Below are positions 8,496 through 39,097 of a DNA stretch of 39,756 nucleotides, piece after piece. A program made the translations under genes and the position numbers. Numbering within the stretch: position 1 is the stretch's first letter; each line of letters opens with the position of its first letter. Below the pieces are notes generated by a model, which saw only the letters and a list, made by a program, of their open reading frames with translations, had not been told where the DNA came from and ran no database searches. The stretch spans positions 1 to 39,756 of the forward strand of contig JALSSF010000172.1 in NCBI GenBank assembly GCA_026984375.1. Reading direction: 5' to 3'. The stretch is from Methylothermaceae bacterium. Lineage in GTDB: Bacteria; Pseudomonadota; Gammaproteobacteria; Methylococcales; Methylothermaceae.

Positions 8496-9346
8496 CGTTC
8501 CCGGCGGAAAGCCTGTTTGTAGTCCTGAAAACGCCGGTAGAGGCGCTGCCACAGCGGCCCCGGCCGGCCGTCGCCCACCGGCTTTCCATCCAGTTCGATC
8601 ACCGGCACCAGTTCCCGGGTCGAGCTGGTGAGCCAGATTTCCCCGGCGTGCGCCAGTTCTCCGGCGTACAGGTCGCGCTCCTGAAAGGGAAGATTTTCCG
8701 CCCGGGCCAGTTCGAGAACAAAATCCCGGGTGATCCCCGGGAGCAGATGGCGGCTTTTGGGCGGCGTCACCAGGACTCCGTCGATGACCGCGAAGACGTT
8801 GCTGGCCGCCCCTTCGGTCACCTTGCCGTCGCGGATCAGGATCACTTCGTGACAGTCCCGCTCGAGGGCTTCCTGGCGCAGCAGGACGTTGGCCAGCAGG
8901 GTGATCGCCTTGATGTGGCACCATTGCCAGCGGATGTCCTCGTGGGTGAGGACCCGGGCCGGTCGGGGAGGGCCGGCGTCCATGGGCGTGGCCCAGGCGA
9001 CCACGGTCGGCCGTGGCCGGCTCGGAAAGGTGTGATCCCGTCTGGGGGCCACCCCCCGGGTGACCTGCAGATAGACCGACTGGTCGCCGTCGCCCTGAAG
9101 CAATTCCCGGAGGACGGTGCGCCACTGGGAGTGGGTCAGGGGCGGATCCAGGCGGATGGCGCGCAGACTGTGGTCCAGGCGCTGCAGATGTTGGTCGAGA
9201 CGGAAAAGCCGTCCCCCGTAAGCCGGAATGACTTCGTAGACCCCGTCGCCGAACAGAAAGCCGCGGTCGAGCACCGAGATCTTGGCCCGGCCGAGGGGCA
9301 TGAATTCGCCGTTGAGGTAGGCGATCGCTTCACTCACCTTTGCCAC
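8492..9346 (-). CDS. dat: D-amino acid aminotransferase (class IV aminotransferase)
   Basis: YLNGEFMPLGRAKISVLDRGFLFGDGVYEVIPAYGGRLFRLDQHLQRL, EVILIRDGKVTEGAASNVFAV. Confidence 0.9.
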   Translation of the reverse strand: MAKVSEAIAYLNGEFMPLGRAKISVLDRGFLFGDGVYEVIPAYGGRLFRLDQHLQRLDHSLRAIRLDPPLTHSQWRTVLRELLQGDGDQSVYLQVTRGVAPRRDHTFPSRPRPTVVAWATPMDAGPPRPARVLTHEDIRWQWCHIKAITLLANVLLRQEALERDCHEVILIRDGKVTEGAASNVFAVIDGVLVTPPKSRHLLPGITRDFVLELARAENLPFQERDLYAGELAHAGEIWLTSSTRELVPVIELDGKPVGDGRPGPLWQRLYRRFQDYKQAFRRER

Positions 9347-10490
9347 TCCTCCACTGGTCGATCAGCAGCCAACCCTCGTCCAGGAGGCGCCGGATCCAAT
9401 TGCCGGTATCGATCTTTTTGAGGGCGATGAGGGGATGGCGGCCGATGACCGCGTCGTTCATCGTCACGGTGAGACTGCCCAGTTCCTGTCCCCGTTCCAC
9501 GGGGGCGACGATCTGTGGGGCGATCTGGATTTCGCTGTTCAATTGCTTCTCCTGGCCTCTGGGCACGGTCACGTACACGGGGCTGGCGAGGCCCACCGGA
9601 ACCGTTTCGGCGTTCCCCTTGTAAACGCGGACTTCCCGGAGCGGTTTGTCGGCATCGAACAGTTTTTTGGTGACGTAAAAACGGAATCCGTAATTGAGCA
9701 GGGCCTGGGAAGCGCTGGCCCGGGTGTTTTCACTGGCGGTCCCGAGGACGACGGAGATCAGGCGCATGCCGTTGCGCTCGGCGGAAGCGACCAGACAGTA
9801 GCCGGCCTCCTCGGTATGCCCGGTTTTGACCCCGTCGACGCTGGAATCGCGCCACAGCAGCAGATTGCGGTTGCGCTGGGTGATGCCGTTGTAAGTGAAT
9901 TCCTTGATCTTGAACCAGGCGTAGTACCGGGGGAATTCCGCGATCAGCGCCCGGGTCAGAAGCGCCAGATCGTGGGCCGTGGTGTAGTGTTCCGGGTCCG
10001 GCAGGCCGGTGCTATTGGTATAGTGGGTGTTCGTCAGGCCGAGCCGGCGGGCGTGCTGGTTCATCAGTTCGGCGAAGGTGCGCTCGTCGCCGGCGATGTG
10101 TTCCGCCAGGGCGATGCTGGCGTCGTTGCCGGACTGAACGATGACCCCCTTGAGCAGATCCGCCACCGACACCTGTTTGCCGACCTCGATGAACATCCGC
10201 GATCCGGGGGCCCGCCAGGCTTTCTCGCTGACGGTGACCCGGTCGTCCAAATGCAAATTCCCCTGGGCCAGTTCGTGGAACACCACGTACACCGTCATGA
10301 TCTTGGTCAGGCTGGCCGGTGGCAGGGGTACGTCCTCCTGGTGCCGGGCCAGGACCTTGCCGCTGTGAAAATCCATCAGATAGTGGCTTTTGGCCTGCAG
10401 TTCCGGCGGCGCCGGAATGATGGCAGCGGCCGGTTTCGCCAGCAGCAATAAGGGAATCAGCACGAAATGCAGAGTGTTCAAGCGTCCCAT
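9330..10490 (-). CDS. dacA: D-alanyl-D-alanine carboxypeptidase (PBP5/6 type)
   Basis: Signal peptide; PASLTKIMT (SxxK), SGND (SxN), DGVKTGHTEEAGYCL (KTG). Likely start MGRLNTLHF at 10490; the longer ORF to 11216 overlaps rlpA. Confidence 0.92.
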   Translation of the reverse strand: MGRLNTLHFVLIPLLLLAKPAAAIIPAPPELQAKSHYLMDFHSGKVLARHQEDVPLPPASLTKIMTVYVVFHELAQGNLHLDDRVTVSEKAWRAPGSRMFIEVGKQVSVADLLKGVIVQSGNDASIALAEHIAGDERTFAELMNQHARRLGLTNTHYTNSTGLPDPEHYTTAHDLALLTRALIAEFPRYYAWFKIKEFTYNGITQRNRNLLLWRDSSVDGVKTGHTEEAGYCLVASAERNGMRLISVVLGTASENTRASASQALLNYGFRFYVTKKLFDADKPLREVRVYKGNAETVPVGLASPVYVTVPRGQEKQLNSEIQIAPQIVAPVERGQELGSLTVTMNDAVIGRHPLIALKKIDTGNWIRRLLDEGWLLIDQWRSGKGE

Positions 10491-10498
10491 GGTTTCCT

Positions 10499-11245
10499 TC
10501 AATCGTTCACGATGGCGGGAGTGATGCCGAGGGCCTTCAGTCGCCGGGTCAGATCGTCCACTTGGTCCTGGGAGGTCAGAGGGCCGAGACGGACCCGGTA
10601 CAAGGTCCGTCCCCGGTGCCGGTAGTGGTCGATCCGCGCTTTGGCGAGACGATGTCGGTCGAGGCGGGCGCGCAACCGTTCGGCATTGGTGCGATTGGAA
10701 AAAGCCCCCAGTTGCAGGTAGACGCCGTGAGCGGGGGTCGCCGGCGGTTCCAGGGCCCGGATCTCCACCGGTGCCGTGCCGGAAAGATCCAGTCCGAGCT
10801 TGACGGCCGCGGCGTAGGACAGGTCGATGATCCGGTCCGGATGGAAGGGGCCCCGGTCGTTGATTCTCACCACCACGCTTTTGCCGTTGCGCAGATTGGT
10901 GACCCGGACGTAGCTGGGAATGGGTAGGGTCCGATGGGCGGCGGTCATCCGGTACATGTCGTAGGGTTCGCCGCTGGCCGTCCTGCGGCCGTGGAACTTG
11001 CGTCCATACCAGGAGGCGATGCCCCGTTCCACATAGCCGGCGGCGCTCTTCAGCACCCGGTAGCGCCGTCCCCCCACCTCGTAACTGTCGGGATTGGCCG
11101 AACGGCTGCGGGCCTCGAAACGGGGCACCGCATCGGGGACGGCGCTGACGTCCCTGGGATGGAGCGGGGGACCGTCGGTGGTGTAGGAACTGCAGCCGGC
11201 CAGGAGTGACAGCCAACCGGCCAACAGGATCGGAAATCGTCTCAT
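10499..11245 (-). CDS. rlpA: RlpA family septal ring lytic transglycosylase / rare lipoprotein A with SPOR domain
   Basis: Lipobox LLAGC; GIASWYGRKFHGRRTASGEPYDM, VRINDRGPFHPDRIIDLSYAAA; C-terminal SPOR-like domain. Confidence 0.93.
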   Translation of the reverse strand: MRRFPILLAGWLSLLAGCSSYTTDGPPLHPRDVSAVPDAVPRFEARSRSANPDSYEVGGRRYRVLKSAAGYVERGIASWYGRKFHGRRTASGEPYDMYRMTAAHRTLPIPSYVRVTNLRNGKSVVVRINDRGPFHPDRIIDLSYAAAVKLGLDLSGTAPVEIRALEPPATPAHGVYLQLGAFSNRTNAERLRARLDRHRLAKARIDHYRHRGRTLYRVRLGPLTSQDQVDDLTRRLKALGITPAIVND

Positions 11246-12216
11246 GGGGCCCCGACCCGGGAACGGATGGCTTCGCTCAGTTGATAGACCGCCATGGCGT
11301 AAAGCCGGCTGTGGTTGTAGCGGGTGATGACGTAGAAATTGGGAAAGCCGAGCCAGGCCTCGGGTTCCCCGTCACCGTCGAACACCATTACGACCGCTTT
11401 GCGGGAATCCGGGTAGGGCAGATCCAGGCCGGAAAGGCCCTGAGCCTTGAGTTCCGCCAGGGTTCGGCGCGGCTGCAGATCGGTGTCCGCCAGCGCAACC
11501 GCCACCTTGGGCAGCGGCGCCGCTACCGGTTCGTCCTTCTGCCAGCCGTGTTCGACGAAGTAATTGGCGATGCTGGCGATCACGTCCGCCGGGTTGTTCC
11601 AGATGTCCCGTTTGCCGTCGCCGTCGAAATCCGTCGCATAACGGCGATAGCTCGACGGCATGAACTGGGGCCAGCCCATGGCGCCGGCGTACGATCCCAA
11701 AGGCCGGCGCGGATCCATCCCTTCCTCGCGGGTGAGCAGGAAGAACTGTTCCAGCTCGCGGCGGAAGAAGTCGGCGCGCCGGGGATAGGCGAAGGCCAGC
11801 GTCGCCAGGGCGTCGAGCACCCGGAACGAGCCGGTCCGCGTGCCGTAGAAGGTTTCCACGCCGAGAATGGCGACGAGTATCTGTGCCGGCACTCCATAGG
11901 TCCGTTGCACCCGTTCCAGAAGTGCCCGGTGCCGCTTCCAGAAGGCGACCCCCTGGTCGATCCGCTTCCGGGTCAGAAAGATCTTGCGATATTCGGGCCA
12001 CGGCTTGCCTTCGGCGGGACGCCGCATCGCCCTGAGGATGGTGGTTTTGATCTCGGCGTCTCGGAGTGCCGCCGTCAGCACCTGGGGATCGATGCCGTGG
12101 CGCCGGGCCAGTTGCCCGACGAACTGCCGGGCGGCGGGATAGGTGTCGAACGACAGGGTGAAACCGGGGCTGGCGACCAGGGCCAGCAGCAGACCGAGGG
12201 GCTTTACGGCGTTCAT
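11242..12216 (-). CDS. mltB: Lytic murein transglycosylase B
   Basis: ILGVETFYGTRTGSFRVLDALATLAFAYPRRADFFRRELEQF, SYAGAMGWPQFMPSSYRRYATDFDGDGKRDIWNN. Confidence 0.94.
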   Translation of the reverse strand: MNAVKPLGLLLALVASPGFTLSFDTYPAARQFVGQLARRHGIDPQVLTAALRDAEIKTTILRAMRRPAEGKPWPEYRKIFLTRKRIDQGVAFWKRHRALLERVQRTYGVPAQILVAILGVETFYGTRTGSFRVLDALATLAFAYPRRADFFRRELEQFFLLTREEGMDPRRPLGSYAGAMGWPQFMPSSYRRYATDFDGDGKRDIWNNPADVIASIANYFVEHGWQKDEPVAAPLPKVAVALADTDLQPRRTLAELKAQGLSGLDLPYPDSRKAVVMVFDGDGEPEAWLGFPNFYVITRYNHSRLYAMAVYQLSEAIRSRVGAP

Positions 12217-13338
12217 TCAGGATGGCACCAGTTTGCGATGGGTGTGCAGGGACATCATGATACCAAAGCCCGCCATGAGTGTGACCATCGAGGTGCCGCC
12301 GTAACTGATCAGAGGCAGGGGAACCCCCACGACCGGCAGCAGGCCGATCACCATGCCGACGTTGACGAAGACGTACACGAAAAAAGTCAGGGTCAGGCCG
12401 GCGCAGAGCAGGCGGCTGAAGGTGTCCTGGGCCTGGAGCGCCATGAGAAGTCCGCGGGCGATGATCGCCAAGTATAAAATCAGCAGACTCAGGGCGCCGA
12501 GCAAACCGTATTCTTCCGCCAGCACCGCGAAGATGAAGTCGGTATGGGGTTCGGGCAAGAATTCCAGATGAGCCTGGGTGCCGGCCATCCAGCCTTTGCC
12601 CCACACGCCCCCGGAACCGATGGCGATCTTGGCCTGGATGGTGTGGTAACCGCGTCCGAGGGGATCTTGCTCCGGATTCAGGAACATCAGGATGCGGTCC
12701 CGCTGATAATCGTGCAACTGAGTCCACAGCACCGGCAGTGCCGCGAGCACAGCGCCGATCAGTCCACCCAGGATGCGCCAGGAGATGCCGGAAAAGAACA
12801 CGACGGCGGAACCGGCCGCGGCCACCAGGATCGCGGTCCCCAGGTCCGGCTGCTTGGCGATCAGAAGCACTGGAAGCAGAACGAACAGGCCTGCCAGAGC
12901 CAGGGTTCTGGGCTGGGGCGGCAGCGGGTGTTGGGCGAGAAACCGGGCCACCAGCATGGGGGTGAAGATCTTGACGAATTCCGACGGCTGGAAACGGACG
13001 ATTCCGAGATCGAGCCAGCGCCGCGCCCCCTTTCCCACGTCGCCGAAGACCAGGACGGCGATCAACAGCAGGATGCCGATTCCATAGAGATAAGGACTCC
13101 AGCGATAGAAGCTACGGGGATGAATTTGTGCCACGCCCGTCATGACACCGAAAGCGATCCCCATGCGGATCATCTGGTTGTAGACCAGTTTCACGTTGCC
13201 GTCGGTGGCGCTGTAGAGGATCGCAAGACCGATCCCCGCCAGCAGGACCAGGCCGGAAAGCAGGACGGGATCCAGATGGATACGTTGCCACATGCTTTTG
13301 GGGGCGGCGGGGTAGGTATGACGGATGACGCTGTTCAT
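12217..13338 (-). CDS. rodA: Rod shape-determining SEDS glycosyltransferase RodA
   Basis: Polytopic SEDS protein; GKGARRWLDLGIVRFQPSEFVKI, FLPEPHTDFIFAVLAEEYGLLGA, LPLISYGGTSMVTLMAGFGIMMS. Confidence 0.96.
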   Translation of the reverse strand: MNSVIRHTYPAAPKSMWQRIHLDPVLLSGLVLLAGIGLAILYSATDGNVKLVYNQMIRMGIAFGVMTGVAQIHPRSFYRWSPYLYGIGILLLIAVLVFGDVGKGARRWLDLGIVRFQPSEFVKIFTPMLVARFLAQHPLPPQPRTLALAGLFVLLPVLLIAKQPDLGTAILVAAAGSAVVFFSGISWRILGGLIGAVLAALPVLWTQLHDYQRDRILMFLNPEQDPLGRGYHTIQAKIAIGSGGVWGKGWMAGTQAHLEFLPEPHTDFIFAVLAEEYGLLGALSLLILYLAIIARGLLMALQAQDTFSRLLCAGLTLTFFVYVFVNVGMVIGLLPVVGVPLPLISYGGTSMVTLMAGFGIMMSLHTHRKLVPS

Positions 13339-15176
13339 GGCTGTTGATGGTTCAGGTAGTGCTCGATGAGCCGGCGGGCGATGGGGGCGGCGGCGGAACC
13401 GCCGTGGCCGGCGTTTTCGGCGATGACGGCCACGGTGATCCGGGGACGGTCGGCGGGGGCGAAGGCAATGAAGAGGGCGTGGTCGCGGAGCTTTTTCGCT
13501 ACTTTGCTGGCGCGGTATTCCTCGTCCTGTTTCACCGTGAACACCTGGGCGGTGCCGGTCTTGCCGGCGATCCGATAGTCGAGGCCCAGACCGATGCGCC
13601 GCGCGGTGCCTCTGGCACCGTGCACCACGTTGACCATGGCGTCGATGATGGTACGCAGATGGCGGGGATTGAGCCGGAGCCGGGTTTCCGGTTCTTCCAG
13701 ATACAGCGGTGACGATTTGCCGTCGATCACCCGGTAGGCGGCCACGTGGGGTGTCACGACGGCGCCGCGGTTAGCGAGTATGGCGGTGGCTTTGACCAAT
13801 TGCAGAGGGGTCACCTGGAGGAAGCCCTGGCCGATTCCGGTGATCAGAGTCTCGCCGGGATACCAGGGCTGATGGAAAGTTTTGCGTTTCCAGTCGCGCG
13901 AAGGCAGCAGCCCCGCCTTTTCTCCCCCCAGGTCGATGCCGGTGCGCCGGCCGAATCCGAAGTGCGACAAGAAGTCGTGCAGGCGGTCGATTCCCAGATT
14001 GTGGGCCAGGTCGTAGAAGTAGACGTCGCAGGACTGGGTGATCGCGCTCTTGAGAGCGACGCTGCCGTGGCCCCATTTTTTCCAATCCCGATAGCGGTGC
14101 GATATCCCGGGCAGACGGTAGAACCCAGGGCAGAAAATTTCCTTCCGGGCGTCGATGACGCCGTACTCGAGGCCGGCCAGACCGATGAACGGCTTGATGG
14201 TCGAACCGGGAGGATAGCGCCCGCGCAAGGTGCGGTCGAACAGGGGGCGGTCGGGCGAGTTCCGCAGTTCCTGATAAGCTTTGCGGCCGATGCCGAACAC
14301 GAAGACGTTGGGGTCGAAGCCGGGTTTGCTCACCAGGGCGAGCACTCTTCCGGTTTGCGGTTCCATGGCCACCACGGCGCCGTTGTGTTCCCCCAGGCCC
14401 CGGTAGGCGATGTCCTGAAGGTCGATGTCGATGGACAGGTGCAGGTCGCCGCCGGGCCGGGGCGGGCTTTCCTTCAGAACCCGCAGTTCGCGTCCTACGG
14501 CGTTGGTTTCGATTTCGGCGTAGCCGGTGTGGCCGTGAAGCAGGGTTTCGTAGGCGCGCTCGACTCCCACTTTGCCGATATGGGTGGTGCCCCGGTATTC
14601 GGTCGGATCGAGCCGTTTCAGTTCGCTCTCGTTGATGCTACCCACGTAGCCCACCACGTGGGAGACCAGTTCCCCGTAAGGGTAGTGGCGGACGAGACGG
14701 GCCCGGATGTCGACGCCGTGGAAGAAAGGACGTTTGACGGCGAAGCGGGCTACTTCGACCTCGGTCAGTCGCAGTTTCAGGGGGACGCTTTCGAAACGCC
14801 GGTGTCGTTTGAGGCGGCGCTGAAACCGCTGGATTTCCTCGTCGCTGATATCGACCACCTCGCGCAACTTTTCCAGGGTGCCCGCCAAATCGTCCACCTG
14901 TTCCGGAACGATTTCCAAGCTGTAGACCGAAATGTTCTCCGCCAGGATCCTACCGTTGCGGTCGTAGATGAGTCCGCGGGTCGGCGGCAGGGGAATGATT
15001 TTGACCCGGTTGTCCCGGGCCAGCATGGCATAGTGTTCGTGTCCTAGAACTTGCAGATAGATCAACCGGGCTACCAGACCCAGGGTCATCAGGGTGACGA
15101 GGACGGCCGTGGCGGTGATCCGGTTGTGGAACAAGCGGGTTTCCAGTGCGGCGTCCTTGAGCCGGAAGGCGGGCAT
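13335..15176 (-). CDS. mrdA: Penicillin-binding protein 2 (elongasome transpeptidase)
   Basis: PTRGLIYDRNGRILAEN, PPGSTIKPFIGLAGLEYG (SxxK), TQSCDVYFYDLAHNLGID, AGKTGTAQVF (KTG). Confidence 0.96.
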   Translation of the reverse strand: MPAFRLKDAALETRLFHNRITATAVLVTLMTLGLVARLIYLQVLGHEHYAMLARDNRVKIIPLPPTRGLIYDRNGRILAENISVYSLEIVPEQVDDLAGTLEKLREVVDISDEEIQRFQRRLKRHRRFESVPLKLRLTEVEVARFAVKRPFFHGVDIRARLVRHYPYGELVSHVVGYVGSINESELKRLDPTEYRGTTHIGKVGVERAYETLLHGHTGYAEIETNAVGRELRVLKESPPRPGGDLHLSIDIDLQDIAYRGLGEHNGAVVAMEPQTGRVLALVSKPGFDPNVFVFGIGRKAYQELRNSPDRPLFDRTLRGRYPPGSTIKPFIGLAGLEYGVIDARKEIFCPGFYRLPGISHRYRDWKKWGHGSVALKSAITQSCDVYFYDLAHNLGIDRLHDFLSHFGFGRRTGIDLGGEKAGLLPSRDWKRKTFHQPWYPGETLITGIGQGFLQVTPLQLVKATAILANRGAVVTPHVAAYRVIDGKSSPLYLEEPETRLRLNPRHLRTIIDAMVNVVHGARGTARRIGLGLDYRIAGKTGTAQVFTVKQDEEYRASKVAKKLRDHALFIAFAPADRPRITVAVIAENAGHGGSAAAPIARRLIEHYLNHQQP

Positions 15177-15177
15177 G

Positions 15178-15666
15178 TCAGATCGTGGGAAGATGGCGCC
15201 GTTTCAGAAAGCCGCAACCGGCCAGGACCAGCGGCCAGGCCAAAGTGCCGGTGAGGCAGGGCAGCCAGTAGCTCCACAGCAGTAGGGGCCTGCCCCGCAG
15301 GGCCTCGAGGCAGAAAAGCAACAGTTGGGCCCCGAGCAGGAAAAGCAGGATCAACGGCAATTGCTGTCCCAGGGGGAAGACCCGCAGACGGGTGTGGAAC
15401 CGGACGCAGCAATAGGCCACCAAGGCGTAGATCAGGGCGTGCTGTCCCAGCAGCGGTCCGGTCGCCGCATCGACCCACAAGCCGGTCAGCCAGGCCAGGC
15501 CGATGCCGAACCGCTCCGGAAAGGTCAAGCACCAGTAGATCAGCACCAGCAGCACCCAGTCGGGATTGAGAAGAACCAGGGGCTGGGGCAGCGCCAGCAG
15601 CCGGAGCGCCAGGGCGAACGCCAGGGTGAAGCCGATCAGCCGATAGGTTTGGACGTCAAGGGTCAT
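15178..15666 (-). CDS. mreD: Rod shape-determining protein MreD
   Basis: 162-aa hydrophobic protein (NPDWVLLVLIYWCLTFPERFGIGLAWLTGLWVDAATGPLLGQHALIYALVAY) immediately downstream of mreC; start set at 15666. Confidence 0.9.
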   Translation of the reverse strand: MTLDVQTYRLIGFTLAFALALRLLALPQPLVLLNPDWVLLVLIYWCLTFPERFGIGLAWLTGLWVDAATGPLLGQHALIYALVAYCCVRFHTRLRVFPLGQQLPLILLFLLGAQLLLFCLEALRGRPLLLWSYWLPCLTGTLAWPLVLAGCGFLKRRHLPTI

Positions 15667-16540
15667 GGGGGGCGGCGGGTTTTGAATCGGAATCGCCGGG
15701 CAGGAAAGGTCGGGAACTGTCATGGGTCCAGGTGACGAGCACTTCGCGGATGCGGTCCAGGGCCGCCAGCGGCCTGGCCTGGATGCGGGCGAAGTGTTTG
15801 TGTGGCTGGGGGACGACTTCCGTGACTGTCCCGACGGGGTAACCCTGGGGGAAGACACCGCCGAGTCCTGAAGTGACGAGGAGGTCGCCGGGACGCACGT
15901 CAGCGTTGTTCGGTAAGTGGGGCAATTCCAGGCGGCCGAGGTCCCCGGTGCCGATCGCGATGGCCCGTAACCCGTTGCGGTTGACCTGCACCGGAATCGC
16001 GTGACTGGGATCGGTGATCAGCAGCACCTCGGCGCTGACCGGGGTGACGCGGACTACCTGGCCGACGACGCCGTCGACGCTCAACACCGGCTGGCCCACG
16101 TGGACGCCCAGGTTGCTGCCCTTGTTGATCAGGACCCGGTGTTCGTAGGGAACCAGATCGACTGCCACTAGTTCGGCCACCAGCATTTGTTCGCCCAACT
16201 TGAAGGATTTGTCCAGGAAAGCACGCAGTCGGTCGTTTTCCTTTCTCAGGGCTTCGTATTTGAGGGTGCGTCGTTTGAGTTCGGCGACCTGCCGGCGCAG
16301 ACGGCGATTTTCCGTCGCCAGTTCCCGATGGCTGGTGAACAGCTCCTCCGCCCAGCCGCCCAGCCGAACCGGAGCGGCCGCCAGCCATTGGACCGGATAG
16401 GCGGCGACGGTCAGAAGGGTGCGTAATCCGAAAGTCTGCCCTCGATGGTCGGCCACCATCAGGAGACCGGACAGGACCAGACACAGGAGCAGCCGGGTTT
16501 CCAGGGAGGGGCCGCGGGCGAAGATGAGTTTGACGGTCAT
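15656..16540 (-). CDS. mreC: Rod shape-determining protein MreC
   Basis: Signal anchor, coiled coil (LATENRRLRRQVAELKRRTLKYEALRKENDRLR), INKGSNLGVHVGQPVLSVDGVVGQV, GLGGVFPQGYPVG. Confidence 0.95.
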   Translation of the reverse strand: MTVKLIFARGPSLETRLLLCLVLSGLLMVADHRGQTFGLRTLLTVAAYPVQWLAAAPVRLGGWAEELFTSHRELATENRRLRRQVAELKRRTLKYEALRKENDRLRAFLDKSFKLGEQMLVAELVAVDLVPYEHRVLINKGSNLGVHVGQPVLSVDGVVGQVVRVTPVSAEVLLITDPSHAIPVQVNRNGLRAIAIGTGDLGRLELPHLPNNADVRPGDLLVTSGLGGVFPQGYPVGTVTEVVPQPHKHFARIQARPLAALDRIREVLVTWTHDSSRPFLPGDSDSKPAAPHDP

Positions 16541-16552
16541 GCCCCGCTCGGG

Positions 16553-17713
<1,161 letters not shown>

Positions 17714-26455: not shown

Positions 26456-27745
26456 ATGAAAGTCTTGATCGTCGGTGGTGGCGGCCGGGAACACGCCCTG
26501 GCCTGGAAGATGGCGCAGGGGGAAGGTGTGGAACTGGTCTACGTGGCGCCCGGAAACGCCGGTACCGCCCTGGAGCCGGGAGTGGAAAACGTGCCCATCA
26601 AAGTCGGTGACATCGTGGCCCTGGCCCGGTTCGCCGAGGAGCGGCGCATCGACCTGACCGTGGTGGGGCCCGAAGCCCCCCTGGTGGCGGGGATCGTCGA
26701 TGCCTTTCGGGAACGGGGGCTGCCCTGCTTCGGCCCGACCCGGGCCGCCGCCCGGCTGGAGGGCTCCAAGGCCTTCTGCAAGGATTTCATGCGACGCCAC
26801 GGGATTCCCACCGCCGCCTACGCCGCTTTCACCGAACCGGCGGCGGCCGTCGCCTATGTCCGGAGCCGTCCCCTCCCCATCGTGATCAAAGCCGACGGGC
26901 TTGCCGCGGGCAAGGGGGTGGTGATCGCCCATTCCCTGGAGGAGGCGGAGAGCGCCATCCGAGCCATGATGACGGAGAAGACGTTCGGCGAGGCGGGAAG
27001 CCGAGTGGTGGTGGAGGAATATCTGCCCGGGGAGGAGGCCAGTTTCATGGTCATGGCCGACGGTCGGGACATCGTTTGCTTCGCCACCTCCCAGGACCAC
27101 AAGCCGCTGCTCGACGGCGACCGCGGGCCCAACACCGGCGGAATGGGAGCCTATTCCCCGGCACCCGTGATCACTCCGGCGGTTCACCAGCGTATCCTCG
27201 AGCGGATCGTCCACCCCACCATCGAGGGCATGGCGGCCGAGGGGACGCCTTACACCGGCTTTCTCTATGCCGGTCTGATGATCACGCCGGAAGGCGAGCC
27301 CAAGGTGCTGGAATTCAATTGCCGCCTCGGGGATCCGGAAACCCAGCCGTTGATGATGCGGCTCAAGAGCGATCTAGCCCGGCTGTGCCTGGCCGGTACG
27401 GAAGGAGGGCTGGCGCGCCTGGAGACCGAATGGGAGGAGCGTACCGCCCTCGGTGTGGTCATGGCGGCGGAAGGCTATCCGGGCAAGGTGCGGACCGGGG
27501 ATGTCATCGAGGGGCTGCCGACGGAGGAGACCGAGGACGTCAAGGTGTTCCATGCCGGCACCCGCCTGGCGGACGGCAGGGTGGTGACCGCCGGCGGACG
27601 GGTGCTTTGCGTCTGCGCCCTGGGCGAGACCGTGGCTGCGGCCCGGCGCAAGGCTTATGATTGGGTGGAGCGGATCCGCTGGCCCGGGGTCCATTACCGC
27701 CGTGACATCGGCTGGCGCGCCTTGCGGCGGGAGCGGCAGGGCTAA
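26456..27745 (+). CDS. purD: Phosphoribosylamine-glycine ligase
   Basis: MKVLIVGGGGREHALAWKMAQ, KADGLAAGKGVVIA, NTGGMGAYSPAP, EFNCRLGDPETQPLMMRLKSDL. Confidence 0.97.
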   Translation: MKVLIVGGGGREHALAWKMAQGEGVELVYVAPGNAGTALEPGVENVPIKVGDIVALARFAEERRIDLTVVGPEAPLVAGIVDAFRERGLPCFGPTRAAARLEGSKAFCKDFMRRHGIPTAAYAAFTEPAAAVAYVRSRPLPIVIKADGLAAGKGVVIAHSLEEAESAIRAMMTEKTFGEAGSRVVVEEYLPGEEASFMVMADGRDIVCFATSQDHKPLLDGDRGPNTGGMGAYSPAPVITPAVHQRILERIVHPTIEGMAAEGTPYTGFLYAGLMITPEGEPKVLEFNCRLGDPETQPLMMRLKSDLARLCLAGTEGGLARLETEWEERTALGVVMAAEGYPGKVRTGDVIEGLPTEETEDVKVFHAGTRLADGRVVTAGGRVLCVCALGETVAAARRKAYDWVERIRWPGVHYRRDIGWRALRRERQG

Positions 27746-28572
27746 AGGGCCTGCCAAACCGGTTCCACGCCGGGTGGCAGGGGCGCCAGCCGACCCAGCT
27801 CGATCCAGGGAAAGGCGGGATCGTGGAAGTCGGAGCCCACCGAGCCCAACAGGCGGTAGCGGCGGGCGTAATCGGCACAGGTGGCGACCTGTTCGACGGT
27901 GCTGTTGCCGCTGACCACCTCGATGCCCCTTCCCCCGGCGGAGCGGAAGGCGGTCAGAAAACGGCGCAGCCAGCTCGCGGTGATCCGATAGCGCAGCGGG
28001 TGGGCCAGCACGGCGATGCCGCCGGCTTCCCGGATCCATTCCAGGGCCTGTTCCAGGGCCGCCCACCGGGTGGCGACGTAGCCGGGTTTGCCCCGCACCA
28101 GATAGCGTTCGAACGCATCCGCCACCGACGGGGCGTAATGGCGGGCCACCAGAAAGCGGGCGAAGTGGGTGCGGGTGATCATGCCGTCGCCGGCCATGTC
28201 CCGCACGGCTTCCAGACTGCCGTCGATCCCGTGCTTCTCCAGGTCGGCCGCCATGCGTTCGGCCCGCTGGTCACGCAGCCGTTGCAGTTCCGCCAGCCCT
28301 CGGTTCAGGACTTCGCAGGCGGGGTCGACGCCGAGGCCGATGACGTGAAAGCATTTCTTTTCCCAGGTCACCGAGATTTCCACCCCGGGGATGAGTTCTA
28401 GGTTCAGCTCCCCGGCCGCCCGTCGGGCCGCGGCGATGCCGGAGACGGTGTCGTGATCGGTGAGGGCCAGGTGACGCACGCCGTGCGACGCGGCCCGGCG
28501 CACCAGTTCTGCCGGTGACAGGGCGCCGTCGGAGGCGGTGGAATGGCTGTGGAGGTCGTAGCCGGAACTCAC
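27742..28572 (-). CDS. PHP-domain phosphoesterase (YciV/Rnm-like)
   Basis: YDLHSHSTASDGALSPAELVRRA, LALTDHDTVSGI, PGVEISV, LAHPLRY, VGSDFHDP. Confidence 0.93.
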   Translation of the reverse strand: MSSGYDLHSHSTASDGALSPAELVRRAASHGVRHLALTDHDTVSGIAAARRAAGELNLELIPGVEISVTWEKKCFHVIGLGVDPACEVLNRGLAELQRLRDQRAERMAADLEKHGIDGSLEAVRDMAGDGMITRTHFARFLVARHYAPSVADAFERYLVRGKPGYVATRWAALEQALEWIREAGGIAVLAHPLRYRITASWLRRFLTAFRSAGGRGIEVVSGNSTVEQVATCADYARRYRLLGSVGSDFHDPAFPWIELGRLAPLPPGVEPVWQAL

Positions 28573-30395
28573 GACAGGGCCTGCTGGCGTTCCCCGTAGA
28601 GCCGGGCGTACAGACCGCCCTGGGCCATGAGGTCGTCATGGCCGCCCTGTTCGCAGATTCGCCCGTCCTCGAAGACATAGACGTGATTGGCTTGGCGCAC
28701 CGCGCTGAGGCGGTGGGCGACGATCAAGGTGGTGCGGCGCTCCAGGAAATCCGCCAGCGCCCGATGGAGACGGCTCTCGGTTTCGGTGTCCAGGGCGGAG
28801 GTCGCCTCGTCGAAGATGACCACCTTGGGATCGGCCAGGATCATGCGGGCGATGGCCAGGCGTTGGCGCTGGCCCCCGGAAAGGCGCATTCCAGCGCGGC
28901 CGATGACGGTATCGAGACCGTGGGGAAGCGCCGCGACCGTGTCGCTCAACTGGGCGATCTCCAACGCCCGCCACAGACGGCGGTCGTCCATGTCCCGGCC
29001 CAAGGTGAGGTTGGCGCGGATGGTGTCGTGGAACAGCACCGGATGCTGGAGCACGGTCACTACGTGTTCCCGCACCACGTCCATGCCGATGCGGGTGATC
29101 GGCTCGCCGTCGTAATACACCATGCCCCGCTGCGGGGCGTAGAGACCGATCAGCACCTGGACCAGGGTGGACTTGCCCCCGCCGCTGGCGCCGACCAGGG
29201 CGACGGTTTCCCCGGCTGGGATATCGAGGCTGACCCCTTTCAGGATCTCCTGCCCGTGGCCGTAGCGAAAGTGGAGGTTCTCCACCCGCACGCCGACGGT
29301 CCGTTTGCCGAGGAAGGGATTGGCCAGATGGGGGTAGCGGGGTTCCTGCTCCAGTTCCAGCAGGCGGTTCAGGCGGTTCAGGGCGGCCTGGGCGCTGTAG
29401 AAAGCGTACTGGATTCCCAACAGTTCCTGGACCGGGGACATCATGAACCAGAGGTAGCCGAACACCGCCAGCATCTGGCCGATGGTCAGGTCGGAAAACA
29501 GCACCATGGCCATGGCCGTGGCCCGGAACAGATCGACACCGTGCAGGAACACCACGAAGCTGAGGCGGTTGAGGGCGTCGCTTTTCCAGGCGTAGTGGGT
29601 CGCGGTCCGCCGCACTCCGTCAGCGTGATCCGCCAGACGTTCGAAGTAATAGCGCTCCCGGTTGCTGGCGCGGATTTGGTGAATGGCCTCCAGGGTTTCC
29701 GTCAGGGCCTGCTGGAAGGCTTCCAGCGCGCCGTTCTCCTTCTTTTTCAGCCGTTTGACCTGTTTGCCCAAGGCCCGGGTGAAATAGATCACCATCGGGT
29801 TGAGACAGAGGATGAACAGGGCCAGGGGCCAGTGGATCCACAGCAGGATGGCGGCGGTACCCAGGATGGTAAGGAAGGCGATCAGCGATCGGCTGATGGT
29901 GGTGCCGAGGAAATGGTCCAGGGTATCGACGTCGGTGACCAGATGGGTCACCACGGTGCCGCTGCCCAGGGATTCGTATTCGGCCATCGACACCCGTTCC
30001 AGCCGTTGCAGCAGGTCGCGGCGTAGCCGGTAGGTGACATCCTTGGAAATTTCCGTGAACCGGCGGGTCTGCCAGACGTTGAATCCCAGAGCGAGCAGGC
30101 GCAGCAGGAAGGAGACCAGCAGGATGACCGCGATGTACCACAGGGTGTCCTGCCACCGGGGAGGAAGGGGAGGTGCCGGTAGCCAGCGGTCGATGAAAGC
30201 GGTCACCGGGCCACGGTGGCCGAGTAGGACCTCATCCACCAGGGTCGGGATCAGCAACGGAACCGGGACCGCCGCCAGCGCTGCCAGCAGGGCGACCACA
30301 TGGGCACCGACCAGCTTGCGCCGGTGTTTCAGGGCCAGGCGGATCAACAGCCGCCAGTCGTAGCGGCGCGGCGGCAGGGAGGCGATCCGGGACAT
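28569..30395 (-). CDS. ABC transporter, fused permease/ATPase (MsbA/exporter type)
   Basis: TM region then Walker A GASGGGKSTL, signature LSGGQRQRLAIARMIL, Walker B VVIFDEATSALD, H-loop AHRLSAV. Confidence 0.95.
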   Translation of the reverse strand: MSRIASLPPRRYDWRLLIRLALKHRRKLVGAHVVALLAALAAVPVPLLIPTLVDEVLLGHRGPVTAFIDRWLPAPPLPPRWQDTLWYIAVILLVSFLLRLLALGFNVWQTRRFTEISKDVTYRLRRDLLQRLERVSMAEYESLGSGTVVTHLVTDVDTLDHFLGTTISRSLIAFLTILGTAAILLWIHWPLALFILCLNPMVIYFTRALGKQVKRLKKKENGALEAFQQALTETLEAIHQIRASNRERYYFERLADHADGVRRTATHYAWKSDALNRLSFVVFLHGVDLFRATAMAMVLFSDLTIGQMLAVFGYLWFMMSPVQELLGIQYAFYSAQAALNRLNRLLELEQEPRYPHLANPFLGKRTVGVRVENLHFRYGHGQEILKGVSLDIPAGETVALVGASGGGKSTLVQVLIGLYAPQRGMVYYDGEPITRIGMDVVREHVVTVLQHPVLFHDTIRANLTLGRDMDDRRLWRALEIAQLSDTVAALPHGLDTVIGRAGMRLSGGQRQRLAIARMILADPKVVIFDEATSALDTETESRLHRALADFLERRTTLIVAHRLSAVRQANHVYVFEDGRICEQGGHDDLMAQGGLYARLYGERQQALS

Positions 30396-30402
30396 CGGAC
30401 GG

Positions 30403-32361
30403 TCAAAAGCGCAGGCAGGGATGGATTTTGTCCACCTGGTCCGCGGCCAGTTCGGCCGTCGGGGGACTGAGACGGCGGTAGAGGGCGAGCTCCTCCAGGG
30501 ACAGGGGTCCGGCGATCCGTTCCAGTTGGGTCAGTTTCAGCCCTTGACGCACGAGAAAACGGAGGTAGGTGTGCCGCAGCGCCTCTGGTGTGACGGTTTC
30601 CGGATCCTGGATTTCCGCTTCCACCGCGGTGAGATACAGCATTTTGTTCACCTCGTCCTCCCGGTTGGGAACCAAGGGCGTGTTGCCGCTGGCCGCCAGC
30701 CAGGTCTTCAACCGGGGAGGCAGCGGCAGGGTGCGGCGGTGAGGGGAAGGGGCGAACAGGAGGTTCTGGCGGAAATCGAAATCGGTGGCGTTGATCCGGA
30801 CGACTTCATCCAGGGTCAGTCCGCTGATGAGCAGGGCGATCGTTTGTCGGCCCCGGAGGTCGGCATGAGTCAGCAGGCGGTTGAGTTCGTCGTGGGTCAA
30901 TTCCCGTGGCGGGGGGCTTTCCAGTTCCGCGGCTGGTGCCGGTTGCCGTTCCAGGGAAGCGGGTGCCGGCTGGACGGAATCGATCAGCGGTCGGCCCTCC
31001 GTCTGGGGATAGACGTGAACGCCGGCGAGGGTCAGACGGGTTTCCGGCAGGTTGCCCTCGCGCCGGGTCAGGTATTCCAGCAGCCAGACCGCCAATAGTC
31101 CGGTTCCCAGGGCCCCGAGCGCCACCAGGCCAGCGTCGCGCCAATAATGGGGACGGATCGGGTACTGGGGCCGGTAGGCCCGTTCCACCACCTCCACCTG
31201 GGGATATTTCTCCATTTGTCTGACTTCCAGCCGGGTGATGCGATCCTGGAGTTCGCGCTGGGTTTCCTCCAGTTGCGCCAGTTCCTTGACCAGCGCTTCG
31301 TGTTCGGCGAAGCGATTGCTGAACTCGGTCGCCTGGCGTTTGTGCTCCTGCAGTTGCTTCTCGAGTTCGACGACCGCCTGGCGGGCGCTGGCGTAGTCCC
31401 GTTCCGCCCGGGCCAGGACAATGCGTCGTCCCCGTTCCACCAGGAAGGCGATTTTCGCCTCCACCTCCCTGAGCTGCTCGGGAATCTTGCGGTAGGCGGG
31501 GTTGAGGCGGATGTATTCCGGGGTGAAGCGCTGCTGCAGTTCGGTCAGCCGTTCCCGCAGGGCCTGGGCCCGTTCCTCCAGCACGGCCAACACCCGCTTG
31601 TCCTCGTCGGGCACCACCGGTTTGCCGCGTTCGATCGCTTCCCGGATGGCGTCCACGCGGGCCTTGGCCTTCACCGCCGCTTCGTTGGCGTCGTTCAGGG
31701 AACGGGTCAATCCCTTGAGGCGGGCAAGCACCGCGTTCTCGCTGCGCTCGAGTGAGGCGATGTCGTACCGGCGGCGGAATTCGTCCAGGGCTTTCCGCTT
31801 GGCGACGATCTTTCCCTCCAGGGTGGCCAGTTGCCGCCGCAGGGCGTCGAGGGTGGCCCCGGTGGTCGCCTGAATCTCCCGTGCCCGGGTTTCCATGTAC
31901 ACGTCGATCCAGGTGTTGACCAGCGGCGCCAGTAGGTCCCGGTTGGTGCCTTCGGCGCGCAGCTTCACCAGGTTGGTGTCCGGGACCGGTTCCACGCTCA
32001 GCATTCCCTTGAGGTCGGTCGGGGTGATCTCTGCCGGCAACAGGCCTTGCCATTCCAGGCGATTCAGGGTTTCCACCAGCAGGGGCTGGCCCGTCAACAG
32101 CACCCGCTGGATCGCCACGTGCTGGGGATCGACGACGATTTCGCTCTGATCGGCGGCGGGCGGTGCCGTGGTCAGCAGGGAGGCGCTGGCCTGATAGATC
32201 GGCGGGCGCAGGAACACGAACAGCAGGCCTACCGCCAGTACGACGCCGGTGACCACTGCGAAGATCTGCAGTCGTCTCGAGCGGTACCAGGGAACTGTAG
32301 GTGGGGCGGGGGTTTCCGGTCGCTCCGGTCCCGACAGGTGTTCGATGTGAAGCTGGGCCAT
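30403..32361 (-). CDS. Wzz/GumC-type polysaccharide chain-length determinant fused to a C-terminal tyrosine-recombinase-like (degenerate) domain
   Basis: TM1 IFAVVTGVVLAVGLLFVFL, long coiled coil, VEVVERAYRPQYPIRPHYWRDAGLVALGALGTGLLAVWLLEYL (Wzz-type Pro-rich + TM2), then LTHDELNRLL...LLISGLTLDEVVRINATDFDF...VTPEALRHTYLRFLVRQGLKLTQLERIAGPLSLEELALY. Confidence 0.78.
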   Translation of the reverse strand: MAQLHIEHLSGPERPETPAPPTVPWYRSRRLQIFAVVTGVVLAVGLLFVFLRPPIYQASASLLTTAPPAADQSEIVVDPQHVAIQRVLLTGQPLLVETLNRLEWQGLLPAEITPTDLKGMLSVEPVPDTNLVKLRAEGTNRDLLAPLVNTWIDVYMETRAREIQATTGATLDALRRQLATLEGKIVAKRKALDEFRRRYDIASLERSENAVLARLKGLTRSLNDANEAAVKAKARVDAIREAIERGKPVVPDEDKRVLAVLEERAQALRERLTELQQRFTPEYIRLNPAYRKIPEQLREVEAKIAFLVERGRRIVLARAERDYASARQAVVELEKQLQEHKRQATEFSNRFAEHEALVKELAQLEETQRELQDRITRLEVRQMEKYPQVEVVERAYRPQYPIRPHYWRDAGLVALGALGTGLLAVWLLEYLTRREGNLPETRLTLAGVHVYPQTEGRPLIDSVQPAPASLERQPAPAAELESPPPRELTHDELNRLLTHADLRGRQTIALLISGLTLDEVVRINATDFDFRQNLLFAPSPHRRTLPLPPRLKTWLAASGNTPLVPNREDEVNKMLYLTAVEAEIQDPETVTPEALRHTYLRFLVRQGLKLTQLERIAGPLSLEELALYRRLSPPTAELAADQVDKIHPCLRF

Positions 32362-32378: not shown

Positions 32379-33458
32379 TCAGGGTAACAGAGCCAGCAGA
32401 TGGTGCAGCCTGGCCTCCAGCGCCGTCGCGCTCGACGCCCGCACGGTGGCATGGCCCACCTTGCGTCCCGGGCGTTCCACCTTGCCGTAGAAGTGGCAGT
32501 GGACCCCGGGTTGCTCCAGCACGTCCGCCAGGGTGGGGAGAACGCCGATGAAATTCACCATGGCGGCATGTCCTACCGGTTCCGTGTCCCCCAGGGGCAG
32601 ATCCAGGATGGCGCGCAGATGGTTTTCGAACTGACTGATTTCGCTCCCCTCGATGGTCCAGTGACCGGAATTGTGCACCCTCGGCGCCATTTCGTTGGCG
32701 AGCAGGCGGCCGTGGACCTCGAACAGTTCCAGGGCAAGGACACCCACATAGTCCAAATGTTCCAGCAGACGGCAGGCGTAGTCTTCCGCCCTGGCCGTCT
32801 GGGAGTCCCGGGGGCGGCAGCGGGCCACGTGGAGGATGCCGTCCCGGTGAACGTTCTCGCTCAAAGGATAGAAGGCCATGTCGCCGTTGCGGCGGCGCAC
32901 CGCGATGATGGACACCTCACGCTGGAAGGGAATGAAGCTTTCCCCGATCAGGGGATTGCCGCCGAGTTCCCGCCAGGCCCGTTCCATGTCGGCGGCGGTT
33001 CGCACCAGGAACTGGCCCTTGCCGTCGTAGCCGAAGCGGCGGGTTTTGACCAGGAACGGCCAGCCGAGGGTTTTGGGCGCCTCCCGCAGATCGCTTTCGC
33101 TGTCGATGGCGATGAATTTGGCGGTGGGGATGTCGAGACGGCGGAACAGGTTTTTTTCCCGGAGCCGGTCCCGGCTTTCCGCCAGGGCCTGCAGCGGGGG
33201 ATGGATGCGGGTGCGCTGCTGCAGTCTTTCCAGCCCTTCCAGGGAAACGTTCTCGAATTCGTAGGTGATGACGTCGCAGTCCTCGGCCATCCGTGCCAGG
33301 GCGTCACGGTCGTCGTAGGGAGCGCAGATGTGATCGGCCAGGGAAGCGGCGCAGGCGTCCCGGGCCGGATCCAGCACGGTGAAGTCGAGTCCCAGGGGAT
33401 AGCCCGCCAGGATCAGCATGCGCGCCAATTGCCCCCCACCGATGATGCCAACCCTCAT
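32379..33458 (-). CDS. purK: N5-carboxyaminoimidazole ribonucleotide synthase
   Basis: [82 protein letters not shown]. Start at 33458; the longer ORF overlaps purE. Confidence 0.97.
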
Positions 33459-33961
33459 GGCTGCTCCCCCCGGGGATCGGGATGGGCCAGGACCGCTTCG
33501 GTCTGGCGCTGGCGAAAGGTTTCCAGGGCGGTGCCGATTTCCGGAAATTTTCCCGCCAGAATGGCCGCTGCCAGCAAGGCTGCGTTGGTGGCCCCGGCCC
33601 GGCCGATGGCGAGGGTGGCGACGGGAATGCCGGCGGGCATCTGCACGATGGACAACAGGGAGTCCAGGCCGTTGAGGGCCCTGGATGGCACCGGGACTCC
33701 CAGCACCGGCAACGTGGTCTTGGCGGCCACCATGCCGGGAAGATGGGCGGCTCCGCCGGCGCCGGCGATGATGACCTGAAGCCCACGTTGTATGGCCTTG
33801 CCGGCGTAATCGAAAAGCAGATCCGGCGTGCGGTGAGCCGAGACTACCCGAACTTCGAAGGGAATCGCCAGTTGCTCCAGCATGTCGGCGGCATGATGCA
33901 TGGTTTCCCAGTCGGACTGGGATCCCATGATCACCCCCACCAGGGGTTTGCTTTGCATCAT
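33455..33961 (-). CDS. purE: N5-carboxyaminoimidazole ribonucleotide mutase
   Basis: [83 protein letters not shown] track extends to 33994. Confidence 0.97.
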
Positions 33962-35790: not shown

Positions 35791-35979
35791 ATGGACAAGA
35801 AACTTCTGGAAATTCTGGTGTGCCCTTTGTGCAAGGGCAAGCTGATCTACGATGCCGAGGCGGAAGAATTGATCTGTAGGGCGGACCGTCTGGCGTTTCC
35901 CATCCGGGACGACATCCCGGTGATGCTCGAGGAGGAGGCCCGCAAGCTCAGCCTGGAAGAATACGACCGGCTCAAATGA
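35791..35979 (+). CDS. ycaR: Trm112-like/YcaR family protein
   Basis: [53 protein letters not shown]. Confidence 0.94.
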
Positions 35980-36737
35980 CGGCCTTCAAAATCGTCATTC
36001 CCGCCCGCCATGCCTCCTCCCGACTGCCGGGCAAACCCTTGCTGGAGCTGGCGGGGAAACCGATGATCGTCCACGTCTGTGAGCAGGCCTTGAAAGCCGG
36101 GGCCGACGAGGTGGTCCTGGCCACCGACGATCCCCGGATCGGGGAAGCAGCCCGGGTGACCGGGGTGAAGACGCTGTTGACGGCGGCCGCCCACCACAGC
36201 GGCACCGAACGGATCGAGGAAGTCGCCCGGCGGCTGCGGTGGGAGGAAGACGACATCGTGGTCAACTGGCAGGGGGACGAGCCCCTGCTGGAGCCAGCGC
36301 TGGTGCGCCATCTGGCCCGGTCACTGGCCGAGCATTCCGACGCTGTGGTGGCGACCCTGGCGGCCCCGGCCACGGAAGCGGAGGTTTTCAATCCCCACGC
36401 CGTGAAGGTAGTCATGGATCAGGCTGGTTACGCCCTCTACTTCAGCCGGGCCCCGATCCCCTGGCACCGGGATGGCTTCACCGACGCCGACCCGAAGCTG
36501 GCACTGGAGCAGTACTGGCGCCACATCGGCGTGTATGCCTATCGGGTCGGTCTGTTGCACCGTTATGTGGCCTGGCCGCCGGCGCCGCTGGAGCGGTTGG
36601 AATCCCTTGAACAATTGCGGATCCTGTGGCACGGTGAGCGTATCGTCGTGCTCACCGTGCCCCTCGCTCCGGAACCCGGGGTGGACACGCCGGAGGATCT
36701 CGACCGGGTCGACCGACTGCTGCGGGAGCGCGGATAA
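35976..36737 (+). CDS. kdsB: 3-deoxy-manno-octulosonate cytidylyltransferase
   Basis: [70 protein letters not shown]. Confidence 0.97.
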
Positions 36738-36753
36738 AACCGGAGGTGGAACC

Positions 36754-37239
36754 ATGATGCGGATACTGTTTGTGTGCATGGGAAACATCTGTCGTTCGCC
36801 CATGGCCCAGGGGGTCTTCGAGAAACTGCTGAGCCAGCACGGCCTGAGCGATCGGGTGCTGGTGGAGTCGGCCGGAACCCATGCCTACCACCTGGGCAAG
36901 GCGCCGGATGAGCGTGCCGTGCGTGCCGCCCGCGAACGGGGCGTCGATATCGCCCACCTGCGTGCCCGCCAGGTGGAACCGGGCGATTTCGACGAATACG
37001 ATCTGGTGTTGGTGATGGACGAGCAAAACTACGATGCCCTGCGTTTCATCAGTGCCGAACGCCATCGGCATAAACTGAAATTCCTGCTCGACTACGCCCC
37101 CCATCTGAAAACGCGCAATCTGCCCGATCCCTATTATGGGACCGACCTCGGTTTCGAGCGGGTGCTGGACATGATCGAAGACGCCTGTACCGGCCTGCTG
37201 CACCATCTGCAGGAACAGATGCGGAGGCAAATGCCGTGA
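36754..37239 (+). CDS. Low-molecular-weight protein-tyrosine-phosphatase
   Basis: VCMGNICRSPMAQGVF (CX5R P-loop), VMDEQNYDAL, NLPDPYYG acid loop. Confidence 0.94.
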   Translation: MMRILFVCMGNICRSPMAQGVFEKLLSQHGLSDRVLVESAGTHAYHLGKAPDERAVRAARERGVDIAHLRARQVEPGDFDEYDLVLVMDEQNYDALRFISAERHRHKLKFLLDYAPHLKTRNLPDPYYGTDLGFERVLDMIEDACTGLLHHLQEQMRRQMP

Positions 37240-37604
37240 AATACTGGTTGCTGGCCGTCTGGCTGGCCTTCGCCGGTTTGGCGGCGGCGGGCGAGCTGGA
37301 GAAACCGGGACGGGTGAAACACATCGTTCTGGTGCGGCTGAAAAATTCCCGGGATCTGGGGCGCTTCATGGGGTTGAGCAAGCGCCTGGTCGAGTTACCG
37401 GGGGTGTTGCGCTACAGCATCGGCCCCGTATTGCCCCGGGAAGAGAGTCGGGCGGGGGAATCCTTTGATGTGGGGGTCGTCGTCACCCTGGAAAGCCGTC
37501 AGGCGCTCCACGATTATCTGCGTCATCCCCGCCACCGGGAAATCATCGAATCCATGCGTCCGCTGGTGGCGAACGTGGTGGTTCATGATTTCGTCACCCG
37601 CTGA
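37236..37604 (+). CDS. Dabb (stress-responsive A/B barrel) domain protein with signal peptide
   Basis: [20 protein letters not shown] signal; [11 protein letters not shown]...[17 protein letters not shown]...[24 protein letters not shown]. Confidence 0.78.
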
Positions 37605-37612
37605 AGGCGGCC

Positions 37613-39097
37613 ATGGCCGAACCCTGCTCCTTCGCCATTTTCGGCGCCACCGGTCACCTGGCCCGGACCAAGTTGCTGCCGGCTTTGTACCGGCTGGACG
37701 CGGCGGCGGCTTTGGCCGACGCCACCCGTATCGTGGGAATCGGTCGCCGCGACTGGGACGATGCCGCTTGGCGCCGGCGGGTGGCGGAGCAATTGCACGA
37801 TCAGCTCCCCCTCGATGAAGCCGTTCTGGACCGCTTTCTGGCCCGGCTGCACTTCGTCCGCCTGGATCTGAGTCGTCCCGAGGATTATGCTCGTTTGGCC
37901 GCCGTGGTCGCCGATCCCGGCTTCGTTCCCAACTGGGTGTTCTATCTTTCGATCCCGCCCCAGGAGTACGCCCGGGTGGCGCGTCACCTGGCGCAGCACC
38001 GGCTCAACCGCGAGGATCAGGGCTGGCGCCGCCTCGTGGTGGAAAAACCGTTCGGCTACGATCTGGAAAGCGCGCGGGTTCTCGATCACAGCCTCCACCG
38101 GGATTTCCGGGAAGCGCAGATCTATCGCATCGACCATTATCTGGGCAAGGAGACGGTCCAGAACATTTTCGTGTTCCGCTTCGCCAATCTGATGCTGGAA
38201 CCGTTGTGGAACCGCAACCACATCGATCACGTCCAGATCACCCACGCGGAAACCGCGGGGATCGGGGAGCGGGCCGGTTATTACGACGGCACCGGTGCCC
38301 TGCGGGACATGATCCAGAGCCATCTGCTGCAAATGCTCGCCATGGTGGCGATGGAGCCGCCGCCGCGGATGGACGCCGAATCCCTGCGCGACGAAAAGGT
38401 CAAGGTGCTCAAATCGGTGCGTCCCATTCGTCCCGATGCCGTGCACGCCCATGCCTTCCGAGCCCAATACGTACGGGGATGGATCCGGGGAGAGGAGGTT
38501 CCCGGCTATCGGGAGGAGGCGGGTGTCGACCCCGACAGTACCACCGAGACGTTCGCGGCCCTCAAGCTCTATCTGGACAACTGGCGCTGGCGCGGGGTGC
38601 CGTTCTATCTGCGTACCGGCAAACGCCTGGCCGAGGACCGGGCGCTGATCGCCATCCGTTTCCGGCATCCCCCCCAGCAATTGTTCCGTGACACCCGGAT
38701 CGAACGCCTGGAGCCCAACTGGTTGCTGATGGGCATCCAGCCGGATCAGTGCATCCGGGCCGAGGTCTACGTCCGGGAAAGGGGCACCGCCATGCGGGTG
38801 CGCAAGATTCAGCTGGATGCCACCACCTGCGGTATCGACATCGACCGCCTCGGCGCCTACGAGACCCTGCTTCTCGACGTCATCGCCGGCGACCATTCCC
38901 TGTTTCTGCGTTCCGACGAGGTGTTGTGGGCCTGGCGGGTGGTCGATCCGGTGCTGCGGGTATGGGCGGTGGAGCGCGATTACATCCCCACCTATCCGGC
39001 GGGCAGCTGGGGGCTGGAGGAAGTGCGCGGTCTTTTCGACCGTGAGGATCATCGATGGCGTAATCAACTGGAAGCCGATTCGGAGGAACAGCCATGA
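37613..39097 (+). CDS. zwf: Glucose-6-phosphate 1-dehydrogenase
   Basis: [79 protein letters not shown]. Confidence 0.97.

Follow-up and report, generated by a model that had tools for sequence, protein, structure and literature searches.

Octamers of the polysaccharide co-polymerase Wzc are kept together by contacts among their cytoplasmic kinase domains, each C-terminal tail docking into the kinase domain of the neighbouring subunit (PMC8285477). A scaffolding role towards its co-polymerase has been proposed for the dead kinase EcpK (PMC12004946), and Haft et al. (2006) found chain-length determinants among exosortase-correlated proteins, in a text that does not mention an integrase or recombinase (PMC1569441). 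Here we describe a gene of a Methylothermaceae bacterium, located in a 39,756-nucleotide stretch of its DNA (the window), whose product joins a co-polymerase-like membrane half to a tail resembling a tyrosine recombinase. Our literature search found no earlier description of a co-polymerase combined with a dead recombinase domain. We conclude that the joining of a co-polymerase-like protein to a recombinase domain that is dead and exapted represents a real and conserved architecture that is apparently undescribed.

The fusion gene forms a single frame with no internal stop, and the AlphaFold model contains the first transmembrane helix, the coiled coil and the second transmembrane helix that an earlier note on this DNA had listed (Table 1). 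The linker that follows, presumably cytoplasmic, is 41-62 residues long in relatives. The same note had begun the recombinase tail at nucleotide 30906; the assignment held, while the boundary shifted, as the domain begins at about residue 482 (nucleotide 30918). The full-length model (pTM 0.41) does not resolve the mutual placement of the membrane half and the tail.

Table 1. Positions of the fusion gene, its segments and active-site positions, and the adjacent genes in the window.
Feature	Position	Strand	Basis or remark
Whole fusion gene, co-polymerase-like with pseudo-recombinase tail	30403..32361	-	652 aa plus stop; relatives
TM1, residues 29-51	32209..32277	-	AlphaFold helix H29-51, hydrophobic segment
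Periplasmic coiled-coil helices, residues 141-385	31207..31941	-	AlphaFold H141-199, H204-244, H252-278, H288-385
TM2, residues 406-432, right after Pro-rich segment	31066..31146	-	AlphaFold; Wzc PDB profile match, E 5e-9
Disordered linker, residues 433-481	30919..31065	-	pLDDT <50 at 434-481
Degenerate tyrosine-recombinase catalytic domain, residues 482-652	30406..30918	-	Profiles, AlphaFold, Foldseek
Box I Arg position, T516	30814..30816	-	Arg in 0/88 tails, 23/23 controls
HxxR His position, E593	30583..30585	-	His in 0/88 tails, 23/23 controls
Arg-II position, R596 (kept)	30574..30576	-	81/88 tails
LGH (third) His position, P619	30505..30507	-	His in 11/88 tails
Nucleophile Tyr position, Y628 (kept)	30478..30480	-	79/88 tails; replaced in nine
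MsbA-like ABC exporter, downstream	28569..30395	-	7-nt gap; order same in several relatives
PHP-domain phosphatase (nucleoside bisphosphate phosphatase/RNase RNM-like)	27742..28572	-	Overlaps ABC gene
purK, immediately upstream	32379..33461	-	17-nt gap; start approximate (family match from ORF residue 196)

The membrane half exhibits the layout of the Wzz and Wzc proteins and is homologous to them: a transmembrane helix, a periplasmic coiled coil and a second transmembrane helix. Its best NCBIfam match is TIGR03007, the chain length determinant of XrtA systems (E 4.4e-15 over residues 31-433), at 54.9 bits and so short of the curated cut-off of 278.85 bits. Matches to TIGR01005 (E 9.4e-9, far under the curated cut-off), to TIGR03017 (also under its cut-off) and to PF02706 (15.8 bits over residues 30-70, cut-off 25.5 bits) were likewise sub-threshold. 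A family profile built from 55 relatives retrieved Wzc chains from the PDB (E 5e-9), and Xer and P2 recombinases over the tail. Similarly, structural searches with the full-length model matched the membrane half to Wzc, WzzE and KpsE and the tail to Xer-type recombinases; a C-terminal BY-kinase domain is absent, its place being taken by the recombinase fold. These data indicate an inner-membrane protein resembling the polysaccharide co-polymerases, one whose short N-terminus would lie in the cytoplasm, that would form oligomers and that presumably serves a polysaccharide.

The earlier note had read the tail as a tyrosine-recombinase fold, and both profile and structure comparisons agree, with no unrelated fold emerging. 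PF00589 scored 23.6 bits against the tail alone (E 5e-5) and 18.4 bits against the whole protein, under its cut-off of 27.1, but the tail matched NCBIfam XerA at E 1.6e-7, and the integrase profile phrog_1 matched 45 of 60 tails (best E 1e-13). Searched against the PDB, a tail profile matched P2 integrase (1.2e-10), an archaeal XerC-like protein (3.4e-10) and XerD (6.3e-6). The AlphaFold model of the tail reached a pLDDT of 93.0 and a pTM of 0.88, and in a Foldseek comparison with the PDB the best 50 matches listed were all tyrosine recombinases, headed by XerA (E 6.7e-7, TM 0.70). The tail is thus predicted to adopt the catalytic-domain fold of a tyrosine recombinase. A phage progenitor or a free-standing form of the tail was rejected: no relative was found in viral contigs, and a single phage match was weak (27% identity, E 7e-4).

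To compare active sites, we aligned 88 tails to 23 intact recombinases, which served as controls and came from these or related genomes within the same order. Every member of the catalytic set (Arg-I, HxxR His, Arg-II, third His and Tyr) was kept in 23/23 controls; the tails do not hold the full set, and at the Arg-I position they mostly carry Thr, Ser or Asp. The beta-hairpin lysine (position 538), present in 23/23 controls, is not conserved in the tails either. The substitutions noted earlier at T516, E593 and P619, together with the retained R596 and Y628, stand, and a search for the same fusion in related genomes, as had been suggested, found it with the missing active-site positions missing family-wide. 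Because divergent copies from other families also lack Arg-I, the loss must be old. The tails have instead near-invariant residues of their own, E487, Y599, Q606, K/R609 (88/88) and E614, as well as P633 and P648 beyond the tyrosine. The region of R543, R596, Y599, Q606, K/R609, E614 and Y628, where the active site used to be, ranks with the best-conserved stretches of the tail, as would be expected if the old active-site pocket bound a small molecule or nucleotide and the tail served as a sensor for the co-polymerase; however, a protein-docking groove would give equal conservation, and the tyrosine is replaced in some tails, so we consider such a sensor quite unlikely.

The composition of the tails bears on what they might bind. 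Their net charge per 100 residues is -3.2, compared with +2.9 for active recombinases, and their content of Lys plus Arg is 8.4%, compared with 14.0% in the controls; the window's own tail is neutral. The earlier note had proposed a non-catalytic module that binds DNA or protein. The loss of the active site is borne out; since the tails are acidic and several conserved basic positions are gone, protein binding is favoured over DNA. An alternative is that the tail is a membrane-tethered, non-cutting DNA-binding domain that links the chromosome or particular sites to the envelope, or senses DNA. Consistent with this idea, most of the recombinase core is kept, including Arg-II and R543 (87/88), and domesticated dead tyrosine-recombinase (YR) domains exist in eukaryotes (DUF3504, Gcr1, Cbf2/Ndc10; PMC3212892), of which Cbf2/Ndc10 is reported to act at centromere DNA (PMC6077249). 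It fits poorly with the negative net charge and low Lys plus Arg content, with the loss in most tails of the basic control positions 516, 538, 541 and 611, and with the absence of the N-terminal DNA-clamp domain of recombinases, in whose place the flexible linker stands. Judged from composition, general DNA binding is less likely, although a local DNA-binding patch would be compatible with it; overall, we regard a DNA-binding role as unlikely.

The fusion recurs well beyond the window. The gene is present in 10/10 genomes of the window's genus and in 84 of 251 sampled Methylococcales genomes (tail-less homologues counted in); in samples of the class and the phylum, it was found in 6/369 and 3/349 genomes, respectively, the window included in both. 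A scan of named genomes with a single short peptide pattern yielded at least 59 loci, all by title from methanotrophs, Nitrosomonadaceae or unclassified proteobacteria, and among the carriers are isolates of Methylobacter, Methylotuvimicrobium, Methylocaldum, Nitrosospira and Nitrosomonas. Three further gammaproteobacterial families also have the fusion. Both halves lie in one open frame in 55/59 named loci; the other four comprise two loci in which the frame is split and the membrane half lies immediately upstream (L051, L073), a contig-edge fragment (L083) and a symbiont copy without about the first 283 residues (L065). The nearest named relative of the window's fusion, at 92% in the tail, is a Methylothermaceae metagenome-assembled genome. 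Recurrence of the intact fusion in isolates rules out a frameshift or assembly artefact, and the tail was not found as a separate gene; the fusion is real, as the earlier note had held. Three genomes of one genus (G510, G588, G600) carry two diverged fusion copies (L113, L114, L116, L159).

In 14 pairs, dN/dS of the tail was 0.06-0.26, similar to or somewhat above that of the membrane half, while dN was highest in the linker in most pairs. Pairwise distances of the tail and the membrane half are correlated (r = 0.80). The tail is under purifying selection and shares a common history with the membrane half. Six tail-less genes from one genus, presumably Methylomonas (L022-L025, L158, L160), consist of the membrane half and a short, unrelated C-terminus, and no remnant of the tail was found behind them. 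In a membrane-half tree, they form a single clade within one tailed clade, which fits one loss of the tail; the outgroup branch of this tree is very long and its root unreliable, and its support values come from a quick search, so that only this nesting is used. As this clade lost the tail and kept the membrane half, the tail is dispensable there. That loss is what would be expected if the tail were an inert integrase relic, tolerated without function. Purifying selection largely refutes this explanation, as do the family-specific invariants and the persistence of the tail in several families and in widely diverged copies, leaving it hardly any credence. The Nitrosospira and Nitrosovibrio copies (L034-L079) are nested in the Methylobacter group, with the Nitrosomonas copies in a separate clade, a branching that suggests that methanotrophs and ammonia oxidisers have exchanged the gene.

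This range of named hosts could also mean that the whole protein has a role unrelated to polysaccharide, such as organising the membranes of methane and ammonia oxidisers. One distant copy (L164, in G151, 7825-14875) shares its strand with two SPFH/Band_7 genes and the genes of two diiron methane/phenol/alkene hydroxylase subunits, which would accord with such a role, but the arrangement does not recur in the congeneric genome G372. Moreover, the gene is absent from about two thirds of the sampled Methylococcales, and PF02461 (PmoA/AmoA) is missing where other families carry the gene. We thus find a membrane-organising role very improbable. Searches with PF02461 gave no support for a strict link to pMMO/AMO: among the 369 genomes, 10 had AMO and 6 had the fusion, with an overlap of 2. 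PF02461 was not found in the window's assembly, although the relatives of this bacterium are methanotrophs; the assembly may simply have missed the gene.

The genomes that carry the gene point to exopolysaccharide. An exosortase was found in 79 of the 84 gene-bearing Methylococcales genomes (a set that includes tail-less genes), with five lacking it, compared with 69 of the 167 others. At the level of genera, the enzyme was present in 26/26 gene-bearing Methylococcales genera compared with 10/22 others (Fisher p 9e-6); since the genomes are related and tail-less genes are counted in, the p-values overstate, and phylogeny is allowed for up to the genus level only. Outside Methylococcales, all 11 gene-bearing genomes tested had an exosortase, 10 of them above the XrtA cut-off; the base rate in the class sample was 14/56, or 8/56 above that cut-off. 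A Wza-type exporter occurred in 76/84 gene-bearing Methylococcales genomes and in 120/167 others. In the window's genome, both XrtA, on contig C196, and a second co-polymerase, close to a Wza-type gene of contig C20, are apart from the fusion gene. Together, these results suggest that the fusion probably serves exopolysaccharide systems of the exosortase/XrtA type. A polysaccharide role, though unproven, is more likely because of both the Wzc-like structure and the exosortase co-occurrence.

The gene neighbourhood supports such a role in part. The PHP-domain phosphatase is conserved together with the ABC exporter in several relatives, and in nine other relatives a family-2 glycosyltransferase, matching an arsenosugar-type NCBIfam model, takes the place directly downstream. 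No conserved polysaccharide operon was found, however: the neighbourhoods fall into a few clade-specific arrangements and many unique ones, and many copies stand alone. The doubt expressed earlier about the polysaccharide role was therefore reasonable. Not far from the fusion are kdsB (KDO cytidylyltransferase), the nearest lipopolysaccharide gene identified, and zwf (35976-39097). Elsewhere in the window is an ordinary cell-shape cluster (7567-17596) of mreB, mreC, a penicillin-binding protein gene, rodA, a lytic transglycosylase gene and an rlpA-like gene, with a lipoyl ligase-family gene beyond it.

We propose that the tail is a non-catalytic assembly or protein-docking module on the co-polymerase, in place of the BY-kinase, and assign this reading a probability of about 0.55. 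The exapted domain would occupy the position that the BY-kinase has in Wzc, presumably in the cytoplasm, and would work without chemistry, as a platform for protein-protein docking or oligomer assembly; it could thereby determine which state the ring of co-polymerases takes, or bring in a cytoplasmic partner. The EcpK scaffold and the docked tails of Wzc are published parallels. Recombinases form rings in which the C-terminal segment of one subunit docks into its neighbour. By analogy, the tail might clamp the co-polymerase ring on its cytoplasmic side independently of phosphorylation, the segment beyond the tyrosine (P633...P648) acting as the docking tail and the recombinase domain having been recruited for its ring-forming C-terminal docking; we advance this more specific mechanism only tentatively.

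The family offers a conserved bacterial case in which a tyrosine-recombinase fold has become part of an envelope protein and no longer serves catalysis, and possibly a kinase-free control of a polysaccharide co-polymerase. For methanotrophs and nitrifiers, the protein is also a further candidate component of their exopolysaccharide systems of the exosortase type. Because carriers such as Methylotuvimicrobium buryatense can be cultured, ring control without tyrosine phosphorylation is directly testable.

Wzc and other PCP-2a proteins with a BY-kinase are among the known systems close to the fusion. Wzc, the best whole-chain structural match despite low sequence identity, shares both transmembrane helices, the long periplasmic helices and a C-terminal cytoplasmic globular domain, but that domain is a P-loop kinase in Wzc and a recombinase fold here, and the Tyr-rich tail of the kinase is absent. 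The XrtA chain length determinant is matched best by the membrane half within NCBIfam, and gene-bearing genomes almost always have an exosortase; the fusion differs in its extra tail and, in the window's genome, in lying on another contig than XrtA. EcpK-EpsV and HfsB-HfsA likewise pair a co-polymerase with a catalytically dead cytoplasmic module (PMC12004946), a separate pseudokinase there and a fused pseudo-recombinase here. With P2- and Xer-type recombinases (PF00589), the tail shares the catalytic-domain fold and the Arg-II and Tyr positions; in contrast to them, it lacks Arg-I, the HxxR His and, in most members, the third His, is acidic, has no N-terminal DNA-binding domain and is fused to a membrane protein. 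Finally, the eukaryotic YR domains DUF3504, Gcr1 and Cbf2/Ndc10 had similarly lost the active site when they were exapted (PMC3212892), but they are Crypton-related and eukaryotic, and stand without fusion to an envelope protein.
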